NCBI GenBank assembly: GCA_017626325.1
Contig: JAGAIZ010000026.1
Span: 1-60,090, forward strand
DNA from: Lachnospiraceae bacterium
GTDB lineage: Bacteria > Bacillota > Clostridia > Lachnospirales > Lachnospiraceae
DNA: 60,090 bases
Direction: 5' to 3'
Shown here: piece by piece, positions 9,775 through 31,584 of the stretch
How positions within the stretch are numbered: the stretch's first letter is position 1
Layout of the letters: each line of letters starts with the position of its first letter
The notes under the pieces: generated by a model
Database searches by the model: none
What the model saw: only the letters and a program-made list of their open reading frames with translations
What the model was told of the DNA's origin: nothing
Translations under genes and position numbers: made by a program

Positions 9775-9893
9775 ACCGATCTATCCGCCTCCTTTCCATG
9801 CCGCTTTGTCTATTATAACGAAACGAATTTTCTCTTGTCTTCATATTTTAAAAAATTTATATGAATTTCTTTTTTGTCTAATTTTTTGCCTTT

Positions 9894-10250
9894 CTACTTT
9901 TTGGGCTTCGGCTTAAAGACAAGGCTCGCCAGGTATCCGAATACAAGCGCCGCACAGCAGCCTACCGCGCCGGTCTTAAATCCGCCCTGAAAAAGGCCGA
10001 TAAATCCATTCTGCGATACCGCTTCCTTCACTCCTTTCATCAGAACGTTGCCATATCCCAGCAGCGGCACGCTTGCTCCCGCTCCGGCAAACTCCGCAAA
10101 AGGCTCATACCAGCCAAAGAAACTGATAACAGCGCCCGTACATACTAAAAGCACCATAATCCTTCCCGGCAGCAGCTTAGTCTTCTCCATCAATATCTGT
10201 ACGAGGGCGCAGATCACGCCGCCAACCCAGAATGCGTTGAAATAATCCAT
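9894..10250 (-). CDS. spoVAE: Stage V sporulation protein AE
   Basis: A 118-residue membrane protein of the SpoVAC/SpoVAE family, part of the channel that moves dipicolinic acid through the spore inner membrane. Family features are FWVGGVICALVQILMEKTKL, the GGF/GAGAS glycine stretch and FGYLASLVFKPKPKK at the end. GGAGG precedes the ATG. It is separated from spoVAD (14.3 kb) and from spoVAA-AC (47.8 kb), whereas spoVAC-AD-AE are usually adjacent. I could not find a convincing forespore promoter; the upstream sequence is occupied by imperfect 20-bp repeats. Confidence 0.85.
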   Translation of the reverse strand: MDYFNAFWVGGVICALVQILMEKTKLLPGRIMVLLVCTGAVISFFGWYEPFAEFAGAGASVPLLGYGNVLMKGVKEAVSQNGFIGLFQGGFKTGAVGCCAALVFGYLASLVFKPKPKK

Positions 10251-10296
10251 ATTGAACCTCCTGTAATATTTTCCTGTAACATTTCATACCAGAGTG

Positions 10297-10346
10297 CATG
10301 TAACTTCACCGAAATACATGCAGCTTCACAGAATACATGTACCTTC
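10297..10346. repeat. Imperfect tandem repeat upstream of spoVAE
   Basis: Three units beginning CATG[TC]A.CTTCAC at 10297-10316, 10317-10335 and 10336-10346 (last one partial). The array lies in the leader of spoVAE, between it and the aroK terminator. Confidence 0.6.
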
Positions 10347-10364
10347 CGCCTGCTTTTATGATAC

Positions 10365-10411
10365 ATAAAAACAGGAAGAAGCATTTAAACGATACATGTT
10401 TCTTCCTGTTA
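10365..10411 (-). terminator. Rho-independent terminator after aroK
   Basis: On the minus strand AACAGGAAGAA pairs with TTCTTCCTGTT (forward 10370-10380 with 10400-10410), with CAT/ATG extending the stem. A short T-run (forward A residues 10366-10370) follows on that strand. Confidence 0.75.
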
Positions 10412-10442
10412 TTCTTTGTGATTTTGCTGATATTATTCAATT

Positions 10443-10988
10443 TTATCTCATACATTCCATTCGATACCGCTCCGCAATCTCTGCAACGATCTCCCGGATG
10501 GACAGACCTTCGCAGTCGATCGTAATATCGGCATAGCGCTCATACATAGGGATTCTCTCTTCATATAATGCCGCCAGATCCTGTCCTTTTCTGAGGGTTA
10601 CACCGCGCTCATTAAGATCTCCCAACCGCTCGGCGATCGACTCCAGCGAAAGCTTCAGATATACCACAATGCCGATTTCGCTAAGATGCTCCATCGCCCT
10701 GCTGCCATAGATGACGCTTCCCCCGGTAGCAATGACGGCCCGCCGTGCCTCAATGGATGCATTCACCGTCTCTTCTACCTGCCAGAAGCCTTCGGCGCCT
10801 TTCTCTTCGATAATCTCATGAAGAAGCTTCCCTTCCCTGTTCTGGATTACCAGATCAGAGTCCAGGAAACCAAATCCAAGACGTTTGGCAAGCACGACTC
10901 CGACCGTACTTTTGCCCGCGCCGGGCATGCCGATTAAGACAACATTATTTCCGGCGCTTTTATCGGTGCCATTCATAAACGCAACCAT
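10443..10988 (-). CDS. aroK: Shikimate kinase
   Basis: A 181-residue kinase that phosphorylates shikimate at the 3-hydroxyl in the chorismate pathway. The Walker A loop is GMPGAGKSTVG; the shikimate-binding residues are in FLDSDLVIQ and in ATGGSVIY. The lid region contains LNERGVTLRKGQDL. Two in-frame ATGs (10988 and 10976) are possible starts. The gene has its own terminator and stands apart from other aro genes. Confidence 0.88.
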   Translation of the reverse strand: MVAFMNGTDKSAGNNVVLIGMPGAGKSTVGVVLAKRLGFGFLDSDLVIQNREGKLLHEIIEEKGAEGFWQVEETVNASIEARRAVIATGGSVIYGSRAMEHLSEIGIVVYLKLSLESIAERLGDLNERGVTLRKGQDLAALYEERIPMYERYADITIDCEGLSIREIVAEIAERYRMECMR

Positions 10989-11008
10989 ACCTTTCTTATC
11001 GTCCGCAT

Positions 11009-11386
11009 TTATTTCAGATAAGCGGTCACTTCCACTTCACACAACACATCTTTGGGAAGCTGCTTTACCGCCACACAGCTTCTGGCAGGCTTCTGTGCGA
11101 AATACTTCTCATAGACCGCGTTAAATGCTGCGAAATCCGCCATGTCCGCCAGAAAACAGGTAGTCTTGACCACGTTTGCATAATCTGTGCCCGCCTGTGC
11201 AAGAATCGCGCCCACGTTCTTCATAACCTGCTCTGCCTGTTCGTCGATATTGCTTCCCTTAATATCTCCCGTAGCCGGATCAATAGGAATCTGTCCCGAT
11301 GCAAACAGGAAATCTCCCGCGATAATTCCCTGAGAATAAGGTCCGATTGCTGCCGGCGCTTTGTCTGTAGATACTTTAGTTAACAT
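11009..11386 (-). CDS. ridA: RidA family enamine/imine deaminase
   Basis: A 125-residue YjgF/RidA protein. RidA hydrolyses reactive enamines and imines such as 2-aminoacrylate formed by PLP enzymes. The family markers are APAAIGPYSQGI, the substrate arginine in the KPARSCVAVKQLPKDV segment, and CEVEVTAYLK at the end. Start at 11386 after GAGGAGGAG. The longer open frame upstream runs through an 11-bp tandem repeat and is not expected to be translated. aroK lies 20 bases downstream, possibly in one transcript. Confidence 0.93.
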   Translation of the reverse strand: MLTKVSTDKAPAAIGPYSQGIIAGDFLFASGQIPIDPATGDIKGSNIDEQAEQVMKNVGAILAQAGTDYANVVKTTCFLADMADFAAFNAVYEKYFAQKPARSCVAVKQLPKDVLCEVEVTAYLK

Positions 11387-11399
11387 AATACTCCTCCTC

Positions 11400-11432
11400 T
11401 TTCCGAATTCTTTCCGAATTCTTTCTGCATTC
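11400..11432. repeat. 11-bp tandem repeat in the ridA leader
   Basis: TTTCCGAATTC occurs twice in tandem and is followed by a variant TTTCTGCATTC (11400-11410, 11411-11421, 11422-11432). It lies just upstream of the ridA ribosome binding site. Confidence 0.75.
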
Positions 11433-11482
11433 TTCCTGTTATGCCTTTTATCATCCTGATTTATCATGAAAAGTCTGATCTG

Positions 11483-11713
11483 TTATTCCCCAAATCTCGC
11501 TTTCACATAATAACCTCTGGCATTCTCGATGATCTCTGTCACAACGCCCTCTCTCTCCAGCATCCGTTCCCGGAAGGGAAAGTTGCCGGACATCGCAAGC
11601 GAAGGATCAATCGTATAATAGTAATTGCTTGGAAGGACGCCTTCCGTTACGGTAATCCTGTCCCCTTCCTTTAATAATCCGGGACGTTCCATCTTAAATT
11701 CCATTTCCCGCAT
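11483..11713 (-). CDS. Conserved hypothetical protein, about 76 residues
   Basis: A short soluble protein beginning MREMEFKMERPGLLKEG. It contains NYYYTIDPSLAMSGNFPFRE and ends with TEIIENARGYYVKARFGE. The composition (alternating hydrophobic strands, few cysteines) suggests a small beta barrel. I do not recognise a family. AAGGA lies ahead of the chosen ATG; the open frame extends 15 codons upstream. It precedes ridA on the same strand and may share a transcript. Confidence 0.6.
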   Translation of the reverse strand: MREMEFKMERPGLLKEGDRITVTEGVLPSNYYYTIDPSLAMSGNFPFRERMLEREGVVTEIIENARGYYVKARFGE

Positions 11714-11834
11714 TCTGTTTCCTTCTTTCTGGACATTCCCGCCGCGCCTTTCAGGCATTCTGCAGCCGCCTTATGGCTTTCGGCTGCACGCTTATGTCTT
11801 TCTTCTATATGCTTCAAGCTTTCCGAATACGCGC

Positions 11835-14207
11835 TTATGACCTTCCGGCTTCATGAGCGGTCGTTTCCGTCCGCGCTTCCGGCTCGGGATATTGTATCAG
11901 TTCCCTCGGCAGATACTTACGTATCATATCCGTATATTTATTCACATCGATCGGCTTCGAGAGATAATCATGAAATCCCGCCGCCATGTACATTTCCCTG
12001 GATCCCGAAATTGCATTGGCGGTAAGCGCTATAATCGCCGCGTCCTTGCTCATATTCTCTTCCTGCGCCCGCATACGCCTGATCGTTTCCAATCCGTTCA
12101 TCTCCGGCATCATATGATCCAGCAGGACGATATGATAATGATTCGTCTTAATCATTTCCAGCGCTTCCATGCCGCTTTCTGCCGTATCGATCTGAATCTT
12201 CGTCTTCTTCACCAACCCTTTGGCTACAACGAGATTCACCTTATTATCGTCTACGATCAGCATCCTGGCGTCAGGAGCCGTGAATTTCTCAGGTTCATTG
12301 TTTCGGGTCTTATGCATTTTCTGATATGCTTTGGTAAAATCTCCCATAGGAGTATCGTTCATGACAACCTGCGGAAGCAGCACAGTAAAAGTAGAGCCCT
12401 GTTCATACACGCTCTCTACGTCTATTTTACCATCCATCTGTTCAACCAGTCTTCTCGTAATGGCAAGCCCCAGTCCGGTTCCCTCAATATTGCGGTTCGT
12501 CGCCAGATCTACCCTCTGAAAGCCCTTAAACAGCTTCTGCAGATCGTCTTCCTTAATGCCGATTCCGGTATCAGTCACCGAAAGCTTCAGAAGAATCTTA
12601 ACCTCATCAATCCATTCCCAGTCAACGCGCAATGTCACGCTGCCCGTCTGCGTGTATTTCACGGCGTTATTGACAATATTGAGTATAACCTGCCTGATGC
12701 GCACTTCATCGCCAAACAACTGATACGGTATGTCTTTGGACACATCGGTAATAAACTGCAGGCCTTTATCATTTACCTTTTTGGTCACCATATTAATCAC
12801 ATCGTTTAAGACCGAACTCAGTTCATAAGTAACCGGAACAATCTCCATCTTACCCGATTCTATCTTGGAAAAATCCAGAATATCATTGATGATGGCCAGC
12901 AGCGTCTGTCCCGCATTATAGATATCCTGAGAATATTTCTGTGCCTGGGGCGAAATATCTTCTCTCATAACCATCTCGTTCATACCGATGATCGCATTCA
13001 GCGGGGTACGGATCTCATGACTCATATTCGCGAGAAACTCGCTTTTGGCCTCGTTGGCGCGCACTGCCGCCTGTCTGTTTTCCTCAGCCAGATCGGACTG
13101 CTCTTCCGCAAGCGCCGTCTGCTCCTCCGCCAGCGCTGTCTGCTGCTGTGCAAACGCTGTCTGCTGCTCCAGATCCTTCAGCAGTTCTTCGTTTTCCGTT
13201 ACATCGTTAATGATATTAATAATGCTGCGCATCTCGCCAAATCTGTCGAACAACTGCGTATACCGGATATCCAGTATCCTGCTTCCATCCAACGTAGTCG
13301 CCTTAAAGCTTCCCTGCCTTATATCGTTGTCCCTGACATACTGAATCGCCTCTTCCAGCGTACGCTCGGTTACCAGATTCGGGTAGAAATTCTTTGTCCC
13401 GATCAGTTCTCCGCTCAGCCCGAAGAATTCTTTATAGTATTTGTTATGATATGTAATCGTGCCCTCATTATCTACAATGACAATAGGCGTCGTCAGATAG
13501 GACGTCATATACTGACATATTTTCTGATTGGAAAGACTCAGCATATCCACATAATCTGAAATATAGTAAAATCCAAGAGCTGTCAGACATCCTACCAGCC
13601 CTTCGTACAAGGAGACCGCAATACCCTTCCGCATCCAATAACTCTCTGCAAAAAGCATCCCGCCGCCCAGTACAAGAACCAGTATGATCCAGCAATTCAG
13701 ACATACCTGCTGACAGCGCATCGTCGCCTGCGTTTTGTACAGAATCAACACAACAAGCGTCACCACGCCCAGAAAACTCAGAAATCCATAATAGATATCG
13801 TTCGCCGCACAGTCCACACTCCGGTATCCTTTGCCCCACGAGGTCTGTACCAGCACTGCGCCGCCGCCGGAATCCCGTATCACACAGCACAGTATTCCAA
13901 GCAGGACAAGGACAGCCGACACCAGCCTATAATATCTTCTCTTAAGACTGAATCCCAGAATAAACAGAAACGTAAATACCGCAAACAGCGTCGCGCCCAA
14001 TGCGCTTCCCATGATAAAAATATGACTGTGCTCCTCCGGGCACAGGATCAGCGCCACCTGGGATCCCGACCATACAAACGCCGCTGCGGACATGCAGAAA
14101 AACGGGAAATTCTGCGAATTCCCGTAATCCTCCCACCAGACTGTAAACCCCTGCCGCAATACAAAAAACGCTACGCAAAGCAACGCCAACGCTACATATA
14201 TATACAT
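11835..14207 (-). CDS. Hybrid sensor histidine kinase with N-terminal 7-TM sensor, PAS, kinase and receiver domains
   Basis: A 790-residue membrane kinase. Order: about seven membrane helices (1-230), a PAS domain (about 235-340, IVDNEGTITYHNKYYKEFFG), a coiled coil with QTALAEE-type heptads (about 350-390), a HisKA domain with the phospho-accepting histidine in NMSHEIRTPLNAIIG, an ATPase domain (NIVNNAVKYT, DTGIGI, GTGLGLAI) and a C-terminal receiver (LIVDDNKVN, phospho-acceptor in LLDHMMPEMNG, lysine in YLSKPID). No output regulator is adjacent, so it probably passes phosphate to a separate histidine phosphotransfer protein. Start is ATG 14207 after GGGGA; an upstream GTG is in frame. Confidence 0.9.
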   Translation of the reverse strand: MYIYVALALLCVAFFVLRQGFTVWWEDYGNSQNFPFFCMSAAAFVWSGSQVALILCPEEHSHIFIMGSALGATLFAVFTFLFILGFSLKRRYYRLVSAVLVLLGILCCVIRDSGGGAVLVQTSWGKGYRSVDCAANDIYYGFLSFLGVVTLVVLILYKTQATMRCQQVCLNCWIILVLVLGGGMLFAESYWMRKGIAVSLYEGLVGCLTALGFYYISDYVDMLSLSNQKICQYMTSYLTTPIVIVDNEGTITYHNKYYKEFFGLSGELIGTKNFYPNLVTERTLEEAIQYVRDNDIRQGSFKATTLDGSRILDIRYTQLFDRFGEMRSIINIINDVTENEELLKDLEQQTAFAQQQTALAEEQTALAEEQSDLAEENRQAAVRANEAKSEFLANMSHEIRTPLNAIIGMNEMVMREDISPQAQKYSQDIYNAGQTLLAIINDILDFSKIESGKMEIVPVTYELSSVLNDVINMVTKKVNDKGLQFITDVSKDIPYQLFGDEVRIRQVILNIVNNAVKYTQTGSVTLRVDWEWIDEVKILLKLSVTDTGIGIKEDDLQKLFKGFQRVDLATNRNIEGTGLGLAITRRLVEQMDGKIDVESVYEQGSTFTVLLPQVVMNDTPMGDFTKAYQKMHKTRNNEPEKFTAPDARMLIVDDNKVNLVVAKGLVKKTKIQIDTAESGMEALEMIKTNHYHIVLLDHMMPEMNGLETIRRMRAQEENMSKDAAIIALTANAISGSREMYMAAGFHDYLSKPIDVNKYTDMIRKYLPRELIQYPEPEARTETTAHEAGRS

Positions 14208-24494: not shown

Positions 24495-25532
24495 CTAAAC
24501 AAGCTTCCTGTCCACCCGCATCCGGTGCAGCCGACCGTCCCCGGTCAGTTCCACGCGGCACACAAATCCGGCGCCATTGCCGCACTGATAATCATAGTAT
24601 CCTTTCTGCGGCTCTGCGTATAGATACAGAAGGCTCATAATCGTTCCGCCGTGGGCTATGACGACCGTGTCCGAAGTAAGCGTCGGCAGAAGCCTTTCAA
24701 ATCCTACGGCGCACCGCTTCTGCGTCTGTTCCATGGATTCCCCCTCCGGGAAGCACAGAACGCCGTTGCTGTCAAGCCATTCCTGATAGCTGGGGCGCAG
24801 GCTGTCGCTGCCCATCAATGCTTCATAGGATTTCCCCTCGAACAGCCCGAAATCCGTCTCCCGGAATTCAGGATAAACCTCCGGCGCTATATCCGGATAC
24901 AGGATCTGCGCTGTTTCCAGACACCGCTTCATAGGACTTGCGATCACGCGCGCGGCCCGGGGATAAATCCCCTGCATGCGCCGCGAAAGCAGCGCTTCTC
25001 TTCCCTCTGCACAGAGCGACTCGTCGGTCACGCCGATATATTGCTTCCTGCGATTGCCCGGCGTGCTGCCGTGGCGGATGAACGTTATGTCGACTGTGTT
25101 CTTAATCATCTGTCCCACACCGCAGTACACGCGCTCCACACTGTCTGCCTGTTCTGCCAGAATGCACAGCACCCTGCCCACGCACTCTCTGTAATCCCGC
25201 TCGGATTTCTCTATGGGAACGACGCCATTTCCTACTTCATCACAGAGAATGATGAGGTCTGGAATACGTTCTGCTATTGCAGAAAGATAGTTGATTGTGC
25301 GGTTTACATAAGACTCTATCGTATTCTCCGCATTCTCGCAAGCAGAAGCAGGGGACTTTTGCATGATTTCCCTTATTGCATTATGTAAACCGCACAGGCA
25401 TCGCCAGGTACTGTCCCATTTCCCGGATAAAACCGGATATTCTCCCTGCCGGATTTCAGATTCCTGTATCCCGTATTTTCTCTTGATATATTCCTTCTTC
25501 CCCTGGTAAGCACCGCCAATTACAAGCCGCAT
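24495..25532 (-). CDS. Fusion of a CobU-like domain and an alpha-ribazole phosphatase (CobC) domain
   Basis: A 345-residue protein. Residues 1-145 resemble adenosylcobinamide kinase/guanylyltransferase: a P-loop GGAYQGKKEY at the start and DLIILCDEVGNGVVP. The guanylylated-histidine motif (RHxxxR) seen in the separate CobU at 30.9-31.6 kb is not apparent, so this half may be kinase-only or regulatory. Residues 146-345 are a histidine phosphatase with the catalytic RHG in TFIRHGSTPGN (153-155), RVIASPMKRCLETA and VVIAHGGTIMSLL. CobC removes phosphate from alpha-ribazole phosphate or cobalamin phosphate. It starts seven bases after the GTPase-NYN gene ends. Confidence 0.85.
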   Translation of the reverse strand: MRLVIGGAYQGKKEYIKRKYGIQESEIRQGEYPVLSGKWDSTWRCLCGLHNAIREIMQKSPASACENAENTIESYVNRTINYLSAIAERIPDLIILCDEVGNGVVPIEKSERDYRECVGRVLCILAEQADSVERVYCGVGQMIKNTVDITFIRHGSTPGNRRKQYIGVTDESLCAEGREALLSRRMQGIYPRAARVIASPMKRCLETAQILYPDIAPEVYPEFRETDFGLFEGKSYEALMGSDSLRPSYQEWLDSNGVLCFPEGESMEQTQKRCAVGFERLLPTLTSDTVVIAHGGTIMSLLYLYAEPQKGYYDYQCGNGAGFVCRVELTGDGRLHRMRVDRKLV

Positions 25533-25539
25533 GATAATC

Positions 25540-28344
25540 CTACTCCTGCTCCTTAAGCTTCTCCATATATGCCGCCACATCCTCAGACACCCCGTCCAGC
25601 AGATAGTTCCTGCCGCCCACAGCCTGTCCGGGCTGCTGCAGGAAGGTCTGGCGCAGTTCCTCTCCTGCCGCCATCACCTCTTCCTGAAATTCCCTGGCGG
25701 AGACACGCACCGCACCCGCACCCATGATGATAAGCTGTTCCAGACCGTCAGAAGTTGCCACCCGGACGCGGTACTTCTTACTCATCGTGCGGGAAACCTT
25801 CTCGATATACTGGTCGGCGGTCTCCGCTTCCTTTGTATACACCACATCAATATTGTGATAACGCACCGTACTGCCGGGGTTTCCCTTGACCTTATAGGCA
25901 TCAAACACGAGAATCAGGTGCATCTTGCGGTATGCCTGAAAATTACTCATAATTTCCATCAGCCTGCCGCGGGCGCCGTCCAGGTTGGTCTGAACCAGCT
26001 CCTTGAGCGTATCCCACGCAAAAATGATATTGTAGCCGTCCACCAGAAGATATTCCTCCTGGGGCTGCGAAATTCCTTGATATTTCACACCGGAATCCGC
26101 AGCAGCACGTATCGTTCTTGCCCAGCCCTGCTTCTTGGGCTGCTTCGTGCCGAAGGTGCGGTTGAAGATCTCTTCGATCTCGTCCTGGGCTATGAAATCC
26201 TCGGAGGTGCTGCTCCTTGTTGCCGCCTGACGTCTGGCGTAGCGGTCAGCGAAGCTATCGCCAGCCGTCCCTGGCAGAGCATCCGCCCCGTTCTCATTCT
26301 CATCACAATCCTGCGCGCCATAAACAGAGCCGTCCGACAATTGCCATCCCCTTGCCAACGCAGGTTCCAGATGCATATACTCCTCTACCTGGTTCCATTC
26401 CACCACGAAACCTGCGCCATGGGCGCAGAATACGGAGCCACAGGGATTATCCAGATCGTGCTCTGCCTCATAACCGACAGCTTCTATGACCTCTTCGGAA
26501 TTGTGGCAGGGCTCATACCCCTTCAAACTGGTAAAAAGCCTGCCTCTGCCGCCGGAATAAGCCAGCATTTCAGCCTGATAGCCGTGCATCTGCGCCACCG
26601 GGACCGTTCCTGTCAGCACTGACACCTCTCCTACTGTCTCCGGTGCGCCGAAACGTCCGCCCTTCGTCTGCATGTCCGTCATAGCCCGTCCGACGACCGC
26701 CGCCGGAAGCTCCAGCCGAAATTCATAGACCGGCTCCAGCAGGACGCTCTGTGCCTTACACAGTCCCTGTCTGACGGCCCGATAGGTAGCCTGCCTGAAA
26801 TCGCCGCCCTCAGTGTGTTTCTGATGAGCCCGTCCCGCCGCCAGCGTAATCTGCATATCCGTAATCGGCGAGCCCGTCAGCACACCCAGATGCTCCTTTT
26901 CCTCTAAATGGGTCAAAATCAGCCGCTGCCAGTTCCTGTCCAGCATATCCTCGCTGCACCGGGTCCGAAACTGCAGGCCGCTGCCCCGCTCGCCCGGCTC
27001 CAGAATCAGATGCACCTCCGCATAGTGCCGCAGCGGTTCGAAATGTCCCACTCCCTCTGTCACATCCGCAATGGTCTCCTTATAGACGATGCTTCCCTCA
27101 TCGAAGCCGACCTCCACGCCGAAGCGATCATAAATCAGACTCCGCAATATCTCGATCTGCACCTCACCCATAAGCTGTACATGAATCTCGCCAAGCTGTT
27201 CCTTCCATACCATATGAAGCTGCGGTTCTTCCTCTTCGAGTTGACATAACTCCCGGTACATTTTATGTACATCGCTGCCCTCCGGCAAAACAATCCGATA
27301 AGTCATCACCGGCTCCAGTACCGGAAGCGTGACCTCTTTCTCTATGCCAAGCCCTTCTCCGCAAAAGGTTCTCGTCGGTCCGGTCAGGGCGCAGACACAG
27401 CCCGCCGCCGCTTCCTGCTCCAGCGTATACCTGCTGCCGGAATACAAGCGGATCTGGTCTACTTTCTCTTCCGTCACCTCGTCCCCGCCTGCCGCCTGCA
27501 CCGCTACGGTCTGCTTCACCTTCAGGCTGCCGCCTGTGATTTTCACATAGGTCAGACGAGTTCCCTGCACGTCCCTGGCAATCTTATAGACCCGCGCGCC
27601 AAATTCCGCACCGTATGCCGGGCTTTGCGTATACGCCGAAAACCCGTCCAAAAGCTCTGCCACACCCTCTACTTTCAAGGCGGAACCGAAGAAGCAGGGA
27701 AAGAGCTTCCGCTGCGCGATGAGATCCGCGATAACGTCCGCACATATGATATCCGCACCGTTTCCATCCCGCTCTTCCTTCTCCAGATAGCACTCTAAGA
27801 GCGTCTCATCACAGACAGCAATATTCTCGTATAATTCCGCCTGCGTCTGGTTTTTATACGCAAACGCCACGCACCGCTCGTCCAGCCTGTCCCTTAACTG
27901 GGCAAGCAGCTTCTCCGCTTCCGTCCCCGGCTGGTCCATTTTATTGATAAATAGAAAAACCGGAACCCGATAACGTTCCAACAGCTTCCAAAGCGTCAAC
28001 GTGTGTCCCTGCACGCCGTCCGCTCCGCTTACAATGAGCACGGCATAGTCCAACACCTGCAGGGTCCGCTCCATCTCCGCTGAGAAATCCACATGTCCCG
28101 GCGTATCCAGCAGCGTCACGTCCATGTTCTTCCATGAAAAACGTGCCTGCTTTGAGAAGATGGTAATGCCCCGGTCCCGCTCCTGTGCGTCCGTATCCAG
28201 AAATGCGTCCTTGTGGTCCACGCGTCCCAGCCTGCGGAGCGCGCCGCTGGTATAGAGGAGACTTTCCGCCAGCGTAGTCTTGCCTGCGTCCACATGCGCA
28301 AGAAGCCCCAGACAGATACGTTTATTTGCTGAGGTATCTCCCAT
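25540..28344 (-). CDS. Tet(M)/EF-G-like translation GTPase fused to a C-terminal Rae1/YacP-like NYN nuclease domain
   Basis: A 934-residue fusion. The N-terminal two thirds is a ribosomal-protection or EF-G-type GTPase: G1 AHVDAGKT (16-23), RGITI (58-62), DTPGH (80-84), NKMD (134-137), FFGSA as G5, then the beta-barrel and EF-G-like domains. A linker of about 110 acidic and polar residues follows (about 650-760). Residues 765-905 form an NYN domain like B. subtilis YacP/Rae1, with acidic residues in LLVDGYNIIFAWD, LVFDAYKVKG, TKEAETADQYIE and ATSDGLEQL. Rae1 cuts mRNA in the ribosomal A site, where Tet(M) and EF-G also bind. Whether it gives tetracycline resistance cannot be told. Confidence 0.88.
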   Translation of the reverse strand: MGDTSANKRICLGLLAHVDAGKTTLAESLLYTSGALRRLGRVDHKDAFLDTDAQERDRGITIFSKQARFSWKNMDVTLLDTPGHVDFSAEMERTLQVLDYAVLIVSGADGVQGHTLTLWKLLERYRVPVFLFINKMDQPGTEAEKLLAQLRDRLDERCVAFAYKNQTQAELYENIAVCDETLLECYLEKEERDGNGADIICADVIADLIAQRKLFPCFFGSALKVEGVAELLDGFSAYTQSPAYGAEFGARVYKIARDVQGTRLTYVKITGGSLKVKQTVAVQAAGGDEVTEEKVDQIRLYSGSRYTLEQEAAAGCVCALTGPTRTFCGEGLGIEKEVTLPVLEPVMTYRIVLPEGSDVHKMYRELCQLEEEEPQLHMVWKEQLGEIHVQLMGEVQIEILRSLIYDRFGVEVGFDEGSIVYKETIADVTEGVGHFEPLRHYAEVHLILEPGERGSGLQFRTRCSEDMLDRNWQRLILTHLEEKEHLGVLTGSPITDMQITLAAGRAHQKHTEGGDFRQATYRAVRQGLCKAQSVLLEPVYEFRLELPAAVVGRAMTDMQTKGGRFGAPETVGEVSVLTGTVPVAQMHGYQAEMLAYSGGRGRLFTSLKGYEPCHNSEEVIEAVGYEAEHDLDNPCGSVFCAHGAGFVVEWNQVEEYMHLEPALARGWQLSDGSVYGAQDCDENENGADALPGTAGDSFADRYARRQAATRSSTSEDFIAQDEIEEIFNRTFGTKQPKKQGWARTIRAAADSGVKYQGISQPQEEYLLVDGYNIIFAWDTLKELVQTNLDGARGRLMEIMSNFQAYRKMHLILVFDAYKVKGNPGSTVRYHNIDVVYTKEAETADQYIEKVSRTMSKKYRVRVATSDGLEQLIIMGAGAVRVSAREFQEEVMAAGEELRQTFLQQPGQAVGGRNYLLDGVSEDVAAYMEKLKEQE

Positions 28345-28519
28345 AGAAAATGCCCCTTTCCATGCTATAATAATACCTTTTTATCATAGCACAGAAAGGG
28401 GGATTCGTCGATAAGTGAAAATAGCCGGAGACAAAGCCTGAAGACATAGGTGAACATACTAAAAACACAGCTTGCCCCGTATGCTGCAGCTTGTGAATCG
28501 CTGACACCGCTTTCTTCTG
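28345..28519. other. Intergenic gap between the GTPase-NYN gene and cobS
   Basis: The GTPase gene has a ribosome site GGAAAGGGG and an AT-rich TATTATTATAG stretch that probably holds its promoter near 28370. No further gene or clear terminator is visible. Confidence 0.4.
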
Positions 28520-29672: not shown

Positions 29673-30683
29673 TCAAGGAACCTCATAGTACTTCCTGACC
29701 TGTTCCCGCGGCACATCCCGATAGATATCATTGCGGATCACCGCCTGGTAAACTGCGTTAAAATCCGGAAGCATTCCTTTTAAGGTTACAGTCAGCGCCT
29801 GCAGTCCTTCTGCTATACCTTCTGCCTTTCCTTCCATTCTTCCCTCTGCTTTGCCTTCCACTCTTCCGGCTTCTTTCCCATCTGCTATCAGTTCCGTAAT
29901 CGCTCTGCACATATCTAATTTCTCCCCTGTCTCCCGCTTTCCGTAATGGTCTAATTCTTCTGAACGAATCAGGATCCTTAACACCTGACTGGTTTCCCTG
30001 TCTATGTTCCTGCATTCTTCATGACTTTGTAAATATTCCATGAAAGCGGTTTTATCCTGTCTCCTGCCAAAAAGTTCAAACAATGTCTTAAGCTCTGTCT
30101 GAAAATGCTCACAATTTCTCATCTCAGACAGATTGACAAAATGAATCGGATATCTGGGAATCAGTTCTTTCAGGGCATCGGCAAGCTCTTTATCTTTTCC
30201 AAAATTCATAATATCATGCAGACTCCTGCCGCCCTGCCAGGTCTCATCTCCCCAGTATACTACCAGCGTAACAACCGGATTCAGCAAATCCTCCGCCCGC
30301 ATCCCGGACAGAAAATTCCGTGTGCAGTGCGCCGCGCCGCAATCAGTCCTGACGCTGTTCTTCTTCCTGATTTCCTTAACCTGCCTGTCATATGCCAGCG
30401 CCTCCTGCAGCATCACGCGCACCGGCATACTGTAATCCACATAGGTCTGATTCTCCACCATCCACAGCACATAGAAACTGCCGTCCGCCGCCTGCTTCAT
30501 CGAGAGATCTGCAATGCGCTCTATCACTGGCTGTTCATCCGCCTTGTCAAAAACCGTATTGACCGCTGTCAGCGATGCCGGTTCAATGATCTGTCTTCCC
30601 TGAAACATACAGCCATTCCATAAATCTGCGTATCTTCTCGTATCAGACAGATAACTTTTCAGTGTAATGTCCTTTTTCCCCAT
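29673..30683 (-). CDS. Rpn family (PD-(D/E)XK) recombination-promoting nuclease / transposase-like protein
   Basis: A 336-residue member of the Rpn/transposase_31-type family. The N-terminal nuclease region reads YADLWNGCMFQGRQIIEPASL and WMVENQTYVDYSMPVRVMLQ, with the acidic catalytic residues in RYADLWN and ENQ. The C-terminus has repeated glycine-glutamate heptads (EGKAEGRMEGKAEGIAEG), a hallmark of the family. E. coli Rpn proteins are nucleases that promote RecA-independent recombination. GGGAGG precedes the ATG at 30683; the open frame extends another 82 codons upstream without conserved sequence. It interrupts the cobS-cobU order. Confidence 0.88.
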   Translation of the reverse strand: MGKKDITLKSYLSDTRRYADLWNGCMFQGRQIIEPASLTAVNTVFDKADEQPVIERIADLSMKQAADGSFYVLWMVENQTYVDYSMPVRVMLQEALAYDRQVKEIRKKNSVRTDCGAAHCTRNFLSGMRAEDLLNPVVTLVVYWGDETWQGGRSLHDIMNFGKDKELADALKELIPRYPIHFVNLSEMRNCEHFQTELKTLFELFGRRQDKTAFMEYLQSHEECRNIDRETSQVLRILIRSEELDHYGKRETGEKLDMCRAITELIADGKEAGRVEGKAEGRMEGKAEGIAEGLQALTVTLKGMLPDFNAVYQAVIRNDIYRDVPREQVRKYYEVP

Positions 30684-30827
30684 AAATACCTCCCTGTAAA
30701 ATTGTGTTTCAGCAGAAAGTCTTATGGAAAGCGAAACCTTCTGCTCTATACATAAATAAATTGGAATAAAAGCATGATTTCGCTGGACGTCCTGACGGAC
30801 CAGATACGTAATAGATGCTTTTAGAAC

Positions 30828-30856
30828 AGTATAACATTGTAATTTCGTTCTGTCAC
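30828..30856 (-). promoter_or_regulatory. Promoter of the Rpn-family gene
   Basis: On the minus strand GTGACA (forward 30851-30856) and TATACT (forward 30828-30833) are 17 bases apart. They lie in an AT-rich leader of about 145 bases, between cobU and the Rpn-family start. Confidence 0.55.
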
Positions 30857-30891
30857 TTCTTTTTTTAGGAAAATATAGACGAATTTTCGTT

Positions 30892-31584
30892 TTATTCCAT
30901 GGCGTCATTTTTTTCATGGGAGATAGCATTGCCTGCCGGAATCCTCATCGGAATCCCATACACCACTTCCACCGCTTCCCCGGCCATATCCGCAAGCTGC
31001 CGGTTCAGCCTTCCAAGCTCGCGCATATAGGCCTGCGTCTCAGGCATATATACGATGCCGTCTGAGAAGATATCGTTGGTCACGATGATCAGGTGCTTAC
31101 ATTGCCGCAAGATGCAGCATATCTCTGACAGCAGGCGGCTGGAAATACCGTCTGTTTCCTGCGACTCCGGCTGCTGCCCCCCACACCACGCCCGGTTATC
31201 CTTTTGCCTTGCCGCATGAGATGCCGCACCTGACATATCCGATGCCGCGCCTGACATATCCGTCCGCGCTGCCGCGCTTTCGGCGGCAAACATCTCATTC
31301 GCCAGCAGATTAGACATACACTCCAGTAAAATCACAGCATCACAGCACTGTTCCCGTCCGATTTCATCCACAATCCGCGCGATGTTCCGGTAACATTCTA
31401 TGGTCCGGAACCCTTTGCCCGCCCGCAGCTTATGATGTCTCGCAATCCGCGCCTGCCCTTCCGCTCCGTAAGGCTCCATAGTCGCCGCGTAGTACAGCGG
31501 CGCGCCGGAAGATAATCTGACCGCCAGATTTTCCGCATATTCTGATTTACCGCTGCCGCTTACGCCTGTGATAAGATATAGCAT
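30892..31584 (-). CDS. cobU: Adenosylcobinamide kinase / guanylyltransferase (CobU)
   Basis: A 230-residue enzyme that phosphorylates adenosylcobinamide and transfers GMP to it. It begins with the P-loop YLITGVSGSGKSEYAENLA. The guanylylation histidine region reads ARHHKLRAGKGFRTIE, and IIVTNDIFSDGIVYM is the usual C-terminal segment (here I for the common E in TNEV). Between about residues 105 and 145 there is an extra loop with a duplicated DMSGAAS unit, absent from ordinary CobU. GGAAAGGA precedes the ATG. The gene follows cobT by 40 bases. Confidence 0.92.
   Translation of the reverse strand: MLYLITGVSGSGKSEYAENLAVRLSSGAPLYYAATMEPYGAEGQARIARHHKLRAGKGFRTIECYRNIARIVDEIGREQCCDAVILLECMSNLLANEMFAAESAAARTDMSGAASDMSGAASHAARQKDNRAWCGGQQPESQETDGISSRLLSEICCILRQCKHLIIVTNDIFSDGIVYMPETQAYMRELGRLNRQLADMAGEAVEVVYGIPMRIPAGNAISHEKNDAME

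Follow-up and report, generated by a model that had tools for sequence, protein, structure and literature searches.

What does a bacterium gain by joining a translational GTPase to a ribosome-associated nuclease, and what kind of GTPase is it? The question is raised by one gene in the window, a stretch of 60,090 nucleotides from a Lachnospiraceae bacterium (contig JAGAIZ010000026.1, assembly GCA_017626325.1). The first-pass annotation read this gene as a ribosome-protection GTPase fused to an A-site-type endonuclease domain, possibly a one-protein rescue system. GTPase–NYN fusions were reported in 2015 by Atkinson from ten Clostridiales species and filed as Tet proteins (PMC4342817, accessible text). 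By description, those fusions have the architecture and come from the bacterial group of the one studied here.

The fusion gene (Table 1) is complete and uninterrupted in ORF translation, from an ATG at 28344 to a stop ending at 25540. All five Pfam domains score above their gathering thresholds, NYN_YacP with 168.8 bits against a gathering score of 24.6. The GTPase motifs AHVDAGKT, RGITI, DTPGH and NK.D are invariant in 22 of 22 aligned fusions, as are the NYN residues D769, N772, D815, D844, E848 and D866. Residues 765–912 align to 5mq9, the crystal-structure sequence of Bacillus subtilis YacP/Rae1, with an E value of 5e-27; 5mq8 aligns to a slightly shorter stretch of the domain. Counted along the 5mq9 alignment, D769, D815, D844 and D866 fall on chain positions 7, 53, 81 and 104, each of them an Asp. 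The NYN domain and these acidic residues are thus common to the fusion and B. subtilis Rae1/YacP, and we take the aligned residues to include the Rae1 catalytic positions. The best named match is from a Merdimonas bin, followed by other Lachnospiraceae, which suggests a host of that family.

Much of the first-pass annotation holds up. Its complete GTPase motifs in the first part of the protein are confirmed by their invariance across fusions and by the EF-G domains that Pfam finds; its NYN domain with YacP/Rae1 acidic residues is confirmed by Pfam and by the 5mq9 alignment. The HMM searches that it proposed for the GTPase, EF-G domain IV and NYN families all return matches above gathering scores. 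It had also named two findings that would speak against it, acidic residues out of register with Rae1 and a degenerate GTPase part; both fail, because neither half is degenerate. Judged by their residues, both halves of the fusion look functional.

Table 1. Features of the fusion gene and its leader in the window (protein residues in brackets).
Feature	Positions	Strand	Basis
Conserved leader: promoter-like site, hairpin and small start-codon hairpin	28327..28413	-	model R1, 84.6 bits (the window being among the 11 training rows)
Hairpin with 20 or more pairs; Shine-Dalgarno sequence in the 3' arm, -10-like box in the 5' arm	28354..28400	-	
Promoter-like site TCGACG-17-TATGAT with extended -10	28383..28411	-	consensus match; conserved alignment columns
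Whole fusion gene, 934 aa: EF-G-like translational GTPase and YacP/Rae1 NYN nuclease	25540..28344	-	
G domain (10-240)	27625..28317	-	Pfam GTP_EFTU, 174.4 bits; motifs intact
EF-G domain III (344-413)	27106..27315	-	Pfam EFG_III
EF-G domain IV (418-532)	26749..27093	-	Pfam EFG_IV
Domain IV loop GHFEPLRHYAEV (433-444)	27013..27048	-	
Domain IV tip loop HQKHTEGGDF (507-516)	26797..26826	-	
EF-G domain V (534-616)	26497..26745	-	Pfam EFG_C
Clade-specific tail SVFC.HG..V.W...YMH (619-658)	26371..26490	-	
Linker, 106 residues (659-764)	26053..26370	-	from H658 to NYN start
Conserved linker motif DEIEEIFNRTFG (721-732)	26149..26184	-	E722 invariant in aligned fusions
NYN_YacP (Rae1-like) nuclease domain (766-931)	25552..26049	-	Pfam; 5mq9/5mq8 alignment

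We next consider whether the GTPase is a tetracycline ribosomal protection protein. It has the EF-G-like domain order of Tet(M), Tet(O), TetB(P), Tet(Q) and Otr(A), and the full-length matches listed to Tet-type proteins are about 28–32% identical, with about 90% of the GTPase part aligned. It differs from the Tet(M)/Tet(O) type in its tip loops, its SVFC tail, its sub-cut-off scores and its extra nuclease. On the NCBIfam models, the fusion reaches 426 bits where general Tet (NF012153) demands 775, and 275 bits where Tet(M)/W/O/S (NF033148) demands 1100. A tree of 64 rows, a selection of those available, places the GTPase in a 53-row clade (support 100/99) that excludes TetM, TetW, TetO/W/32/O, TetB(P), Tet36, TetQ and an OtrA-like protein. 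The pattern-based ORF extraction from fetched loci gave none in L115. The domain IV loops are those that displace tetracycline in Tet proteins (PMC4342817, accessible text). At the tip, all seven named Tet/Otr proteins carry P.ST..DF and none of the 53 clade rows does; HT.GGDF stands there in 52 of the 53, the exception being F_L131 with HTDSQDF. The GH(F/Y)EPL of the GHFEPLRHYAEV loop is present in every clade row and absent from the named Tet proteins.

With both scores below cut-off, a clade apart from the seven Tet/Otr proteins and a tip loop that is not theirs, we reject the Tet ribosomal protection identity, and the label "ribosome-protection GTPase" is not supported. Judged by its sequence, the fusion GTPase falls outside the Tet proteins strictly so called; unlike in the 2015 filing, it sits in a clade of its own with another tip loop. 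At NCBI, relatives carry the name "translation factor GTPase family protein" or that of the "TetM/TetW/TetO/TetS family". An unfused clade member lies on Ligilactobacillus salivarius megaplasmids, at 3983-5917 of L201 (UCC118 pMP118) and at 7983-9917 of L090, annotated as a TetM/TetW/TetO/TetS resistance protein and carrying a tip loop that is not Tet-like; for these copies the resistance name is probably misleading.

Between the two halves lie the tail and the linker. S(V/I)FC follows domain V in 52 of 53 clade rows, and most unfused relatives stop a few residues past the YMH tail, where the fusion linker begins. The first-pass annotation had described an acidic linker of about 110 residues: the length is borne out, but with 18 acidic against 12 basic residues the linker is only weakly acidic. 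Across 31 of 39 fused ORFs (the other eight were skipped, their boundary not being matched by the text patterns), linkers have a median of 85 residues and a range of 68–201. Their first half is mostly negative and their second half mostly positive; the second half of the window's linker is slightly negative. A looser version of the DEIEEIFNRTFG pattern recurs in 27 of the 31 linkers, and this motif may form a docking helix.

The fusion is the prevailing form of YacP in the family. A YacP domain was found in 135 of 150 family genomes, lying in a single frame of at least 848 residues in 119 and standing alone in nine; the remaining seven hold fragments or split, frame-shifted or domain-deleted copies, or copies cut at contig ends. 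These counts come from the table of YacP frames, and GTPase content was read in the fetched loci only. The window's assembly (92% complete) holds one YacP copy, which is fused; almost every other genome sampled from the family also has just one. Besides the 119 of 150 family genomes, long fused frames occur in several other families of the class; the 2015 paper listed ten species. One variant, at 9858-11900 (-) of L043, keeps the G domain and NYN, and Pfam finds in it no EF-G domain III, IV or V.

In a class sample of 391 genomes, YacP occurs in 249, the GTPase clade (E <= 1e-130) in 169 and both in 158, leaving 11 with the GTPase and no YacP and 131 with neither. Unfused versions of the two parts tend to occur together within the family: an unfused clade GTPase is found in five of the nine genomes with a stand-alone YacP and in none of 15 without YacP (Fisher p 0.003, with genomes treated as independent of kinship). 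One of these five, in G099, is broken by an internal stop. Of the other stand-alone-YacP genomes, G068 has a match of 34% identity that belongs to another clade, and no such GTPase was found in the remaining three. As support for coupling, class-wide co-occurrence proved weak. Among the matches listed outside fusions, an unfused GTPase is present in at least 14 of 105 YacP-positive and 11 of 142 YacP-less genomes (Fisher p 0.20), or in at least 16 of 107 YacP-positive genomes when G410 and G296, both with a stand-alone YacP, are added (p 0.098). Neobacillus cucumis, Intestinibacter bartlettii and the Collinsella bin each combine an unfused GTPase with a YacP match. In the Bifidobacterium avesanii genome, which has the unfused GTPase, no YacP match was found. 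Since the GTPase is there without a nuclease match, it is apparently useful by itself; the nuclease is apparently not required, and the fusion adds something.

How did the fusion arise? One side of the GTPase clade holds 22 unfused rows (support 95/81); the other is a branch of 31 rows (100/99), 26 of them fused and five not. Four of these five form one group (100/96): two L. salivarius rows, Collinsella and B. avesanii. The fifth is a split gene in G042. Unfused members of the clade (N. cucumis, I. bartlettii, the L. salivarius megaplasmids, B. avesanii) are SVFC-tailed GTPases of 40–53% identity that, unlike the fusion, have no NYN domain. The copies from L. salivarius, Collinsella and Bifidobacterium have probably lost NYN, since their common group lies within the fused clade, and a single fusion followed by nuclease loss is the simplest history that fits the tree. 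The grouping also suggests transfer to Lactobacillaceae and Actinomycetota, the Collinsella record being a metagenome bin. The two Actinomycetota copies, L128 (B. avesanii) and L125 (the Collinsella bin), are nested in the fused clade without the nuclease, a placement that points to transfer from Clostridia and then loss.

Gene order hints at the direction of change. Stand-alone Rae1 follows the gene for a SpoU-type (RlmB-like) methyltransferase in seven of nine family loci. B. subtilis rae1 adjoins the RlmB homologue yacO and is co-transcribed with it (PMC6613710, accessible text). Because the two contexts match, the fused state is probably the derived one. The B. subtilis protein thus stands alone beside yacO, whereas in the window Rae1 forms the C-terminal part of a GTPase and has a different set of neighbouring genes. 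The NYN tree itself is poorly resolved, the domain being short: a single clade of fused NYN domains is not rejected (p-AU 0.39), and the best tree needs three changes of the fused label. For this tree, a pattern-based extraction recovered the domain from five of 20 class loci taken as stand-alone YacP.

Cobalamin genes surround the fusion in the window. Five of eight neighbours tested carry cobalamin-pathway domains, and none of the eight has an RlmB domain. A conserved cobalamin context was not found: by tblastn, none of nine window neighbour proteins matches in 39 family loci of about 3 to 20 kb each, in which the fusion itself, as positive control, gave 43 alignments. The gene after the fusion, at 24495-25580 (-), encodes a partial CobU domain and then a histidine phosphatase domain; in its longest frame it shares 41 bases with the 3' end of the fusion. 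Between cobU and cobS, the cobalamin cluster contains a gene for a YhgA-like putative transposase, at 29673-30929 (-). In the genome to which the window belongs, the best match to EF-G, L083 (C60:22764-24800), falls below the EF-G cut-off and reads DTPGF in place of DTPGH; the main EF-G may be absent from the assembly.

Upstream of the gene lies a conserved leader element. No Rfam family matches the window at gathering score, leader included. As RNA, the leader hairpin folds with −35.9 kcal/mol (z −5.9; none of 200 shuffles does as well). Its -10-like box is preceded, at a spacing of 17 bases, by a -35-like hexamer. A second, small hairpin at the start codon, strong in other genomes, is weaker in the window. 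When one mismatch is allowed, the 5'-arm pattern matches at 28 places, spread over 20 of the 150 family genomes, 13 of which have it at the fusion start; its ten exact matches, in eight genomes, all lie at a fusion start. A covariance model built from 11 copies gives 16 strong matches (at least 59 bits), one each in 16 of the 150 genomes and all at the fusion start. Thirteen of them had also been located by the pattern; the three that it missed, in G104, G056 and G036, were confirmed by sequence. Weaker matches in G119, G107 and G013 (29–33 bits) are likewise at fusion starts. Of 36 genomes with E <= 0.01, 17 have weak matches only, of at most 36 bits. Covariation support is modest, since only two of 27 hairpin pairs change on both sides. 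For most family fusions the search of 150 genomes found no recognisable leader copy, and the covariance model found none in G060, a genome of the same genus.

The arrangement of promoter and hairpin suggests what the leader could do. At eight of 13 element loci a putative co-directional open frame (stop to stop) ends 19–35 bases upstream; the window's cobS stops about 120 bases short of the element. RNA initiated at the promoter-like site would carry little of the 5' arm, so that its ribosome site would be free. Read-through from cobS would yield a transcript that folds and hides that site. The leader possibly insulates the gene against translation from read-through transcripts, or it may terminate the upstream gene; the hairpin was scored as terminator-like.

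What, then, might the protein do? The reading that we favour, by a narrow measure of confidence, is that a clade-specific GTPase moves into the A site when ribosomes slow down or stall, and brings its own A-site endonuclease, a captured Rae1. In the accessible text of the sources, EF-G/Tet-type GTPases insert domain IV into the A site (PMC4342817), Rae1 is an A-site endoribonuclease, and A-site cutting is a step that precedes tmRNA (both PMC6613710 and PMC12320835). We infer ribosome binding, A-site cutting, the trigger and the following order of events. In its GTP form the GTPase would bind a slowed or stalled ribosome, and its domain-IV tip, with the HQKHTEGGDF and GHFEPLRHYAEV loops, would probe and clear the decoding centre. 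On GTP hydrolysis the GTPase would swing out; the NYN domain, on its tether of about 100 residues, could then take the same A site and cut the mRNA, leaving a truncated message for tmRNA. The model carries a tension that the first-pass annotation does not address, in that domain IV and NYN would compete for one site; because they cannot share it at once, we place the GTPase first and the nuclease after hydrolysis. In the literature searched, beyond whose reach some Rae1 papers lay, we found no experiment on any fusion member.

Entry of the captured nuclease with its GTPase is the best explanation because the residues of both halves are intact, the fused form dominates in the family, a tmRNA is present in the window's genome (124 bits), and unfused versions of both parts co-occur in the family. 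Against it count the weak class-wide association and the B. avesanii GTPase without YacP, the L043 variant that keeps its nuclease without EF-G domains III–V, and the stand-alone-YacP genomes of the family, three of nine without the GTPase and a fourth with one of another clade. Some of the same observations would suit two independent halves, with a GTPase that clears A sites in the manner of EF-G and a tether that does no more than keep Rae1 near ribosomes. The 11 class genomes and B. avesanii with a GTPase and no YacP match agree with this, as does a stand-alone Rae1 that functions in B. subtilis (PMC6613710, accessible text). The fused form nevertheless persists over all 26 fused tree rows, with NYN recognisable in each, and we consider independence unlikely.

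Atkinson's 2015 suggestion (PMC4342817, accessible text) was that of a ribosomal protection protein of the tetracycline type, with the RNase as a new means of resistance. Domain order as in EF-G and Tet, and the "TetM/TetW/TetO/TetS family" names that NCBI gives to several relatives, are in its favour. The far lower Tet-model scores, the separate clade and the tip without P.ST..DF are not, and the gene is found in most genomes of the family, not sporadically. In addition, three plasmid regions with clade members hold no predicted resistance-gene row, unlike the tet(M), tet(W) and tet(Q) regions, which have them. The fusion has the look of an ordinary chromosomal gene shared by many Clostridia, not of a tetracycline-resistance gene, and the suggestion seems to us very improbable. 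We would give slightly less weight still to a role in RNA maturation, with NYN trimming rRNA or tRNA and the GTPase positioning it on ribosomes that are being assembled or matured. Maturation of rRNA and tRNA is what Anantharaman and Aravind proposed for the domain, according to the accessible text of PMC4342817; the domain of the fusion is, however, specifically of the Rae1/YacP type, described as cutting mRNA in the A site.

Taken together, the architecture has been known since 2015, and the fusion is real, intact and widespread; this analysis adds its placement in a clade, its distribution, a history with one fusion that fits the tree, and the leader element. More tentatively, and with rather more doubt than belief, we suggest a new functional class of translational GTPase: a non-tetracycline A-site surveillance factor of Clostridia, whose own tip would sense a vacant or stalled A site and which would hand the ribosome over to a tethered endonuclease, its expression in part of the family being set by a conserved promoter-hairpin that would block translation of read-through transcripts. 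The "TetM/TetW/TetO/TetS family" genes of Agathobacter and L. salivarius may well not be resistance genes. If entry of a captured Rae1 with its GTPase is correct, a large part of the Clostridia would couple a GTPase directly to A-site mRNA cutting, and the fusion would offer a defined system for how an A-site endonuclease gains entry to the ribosome.
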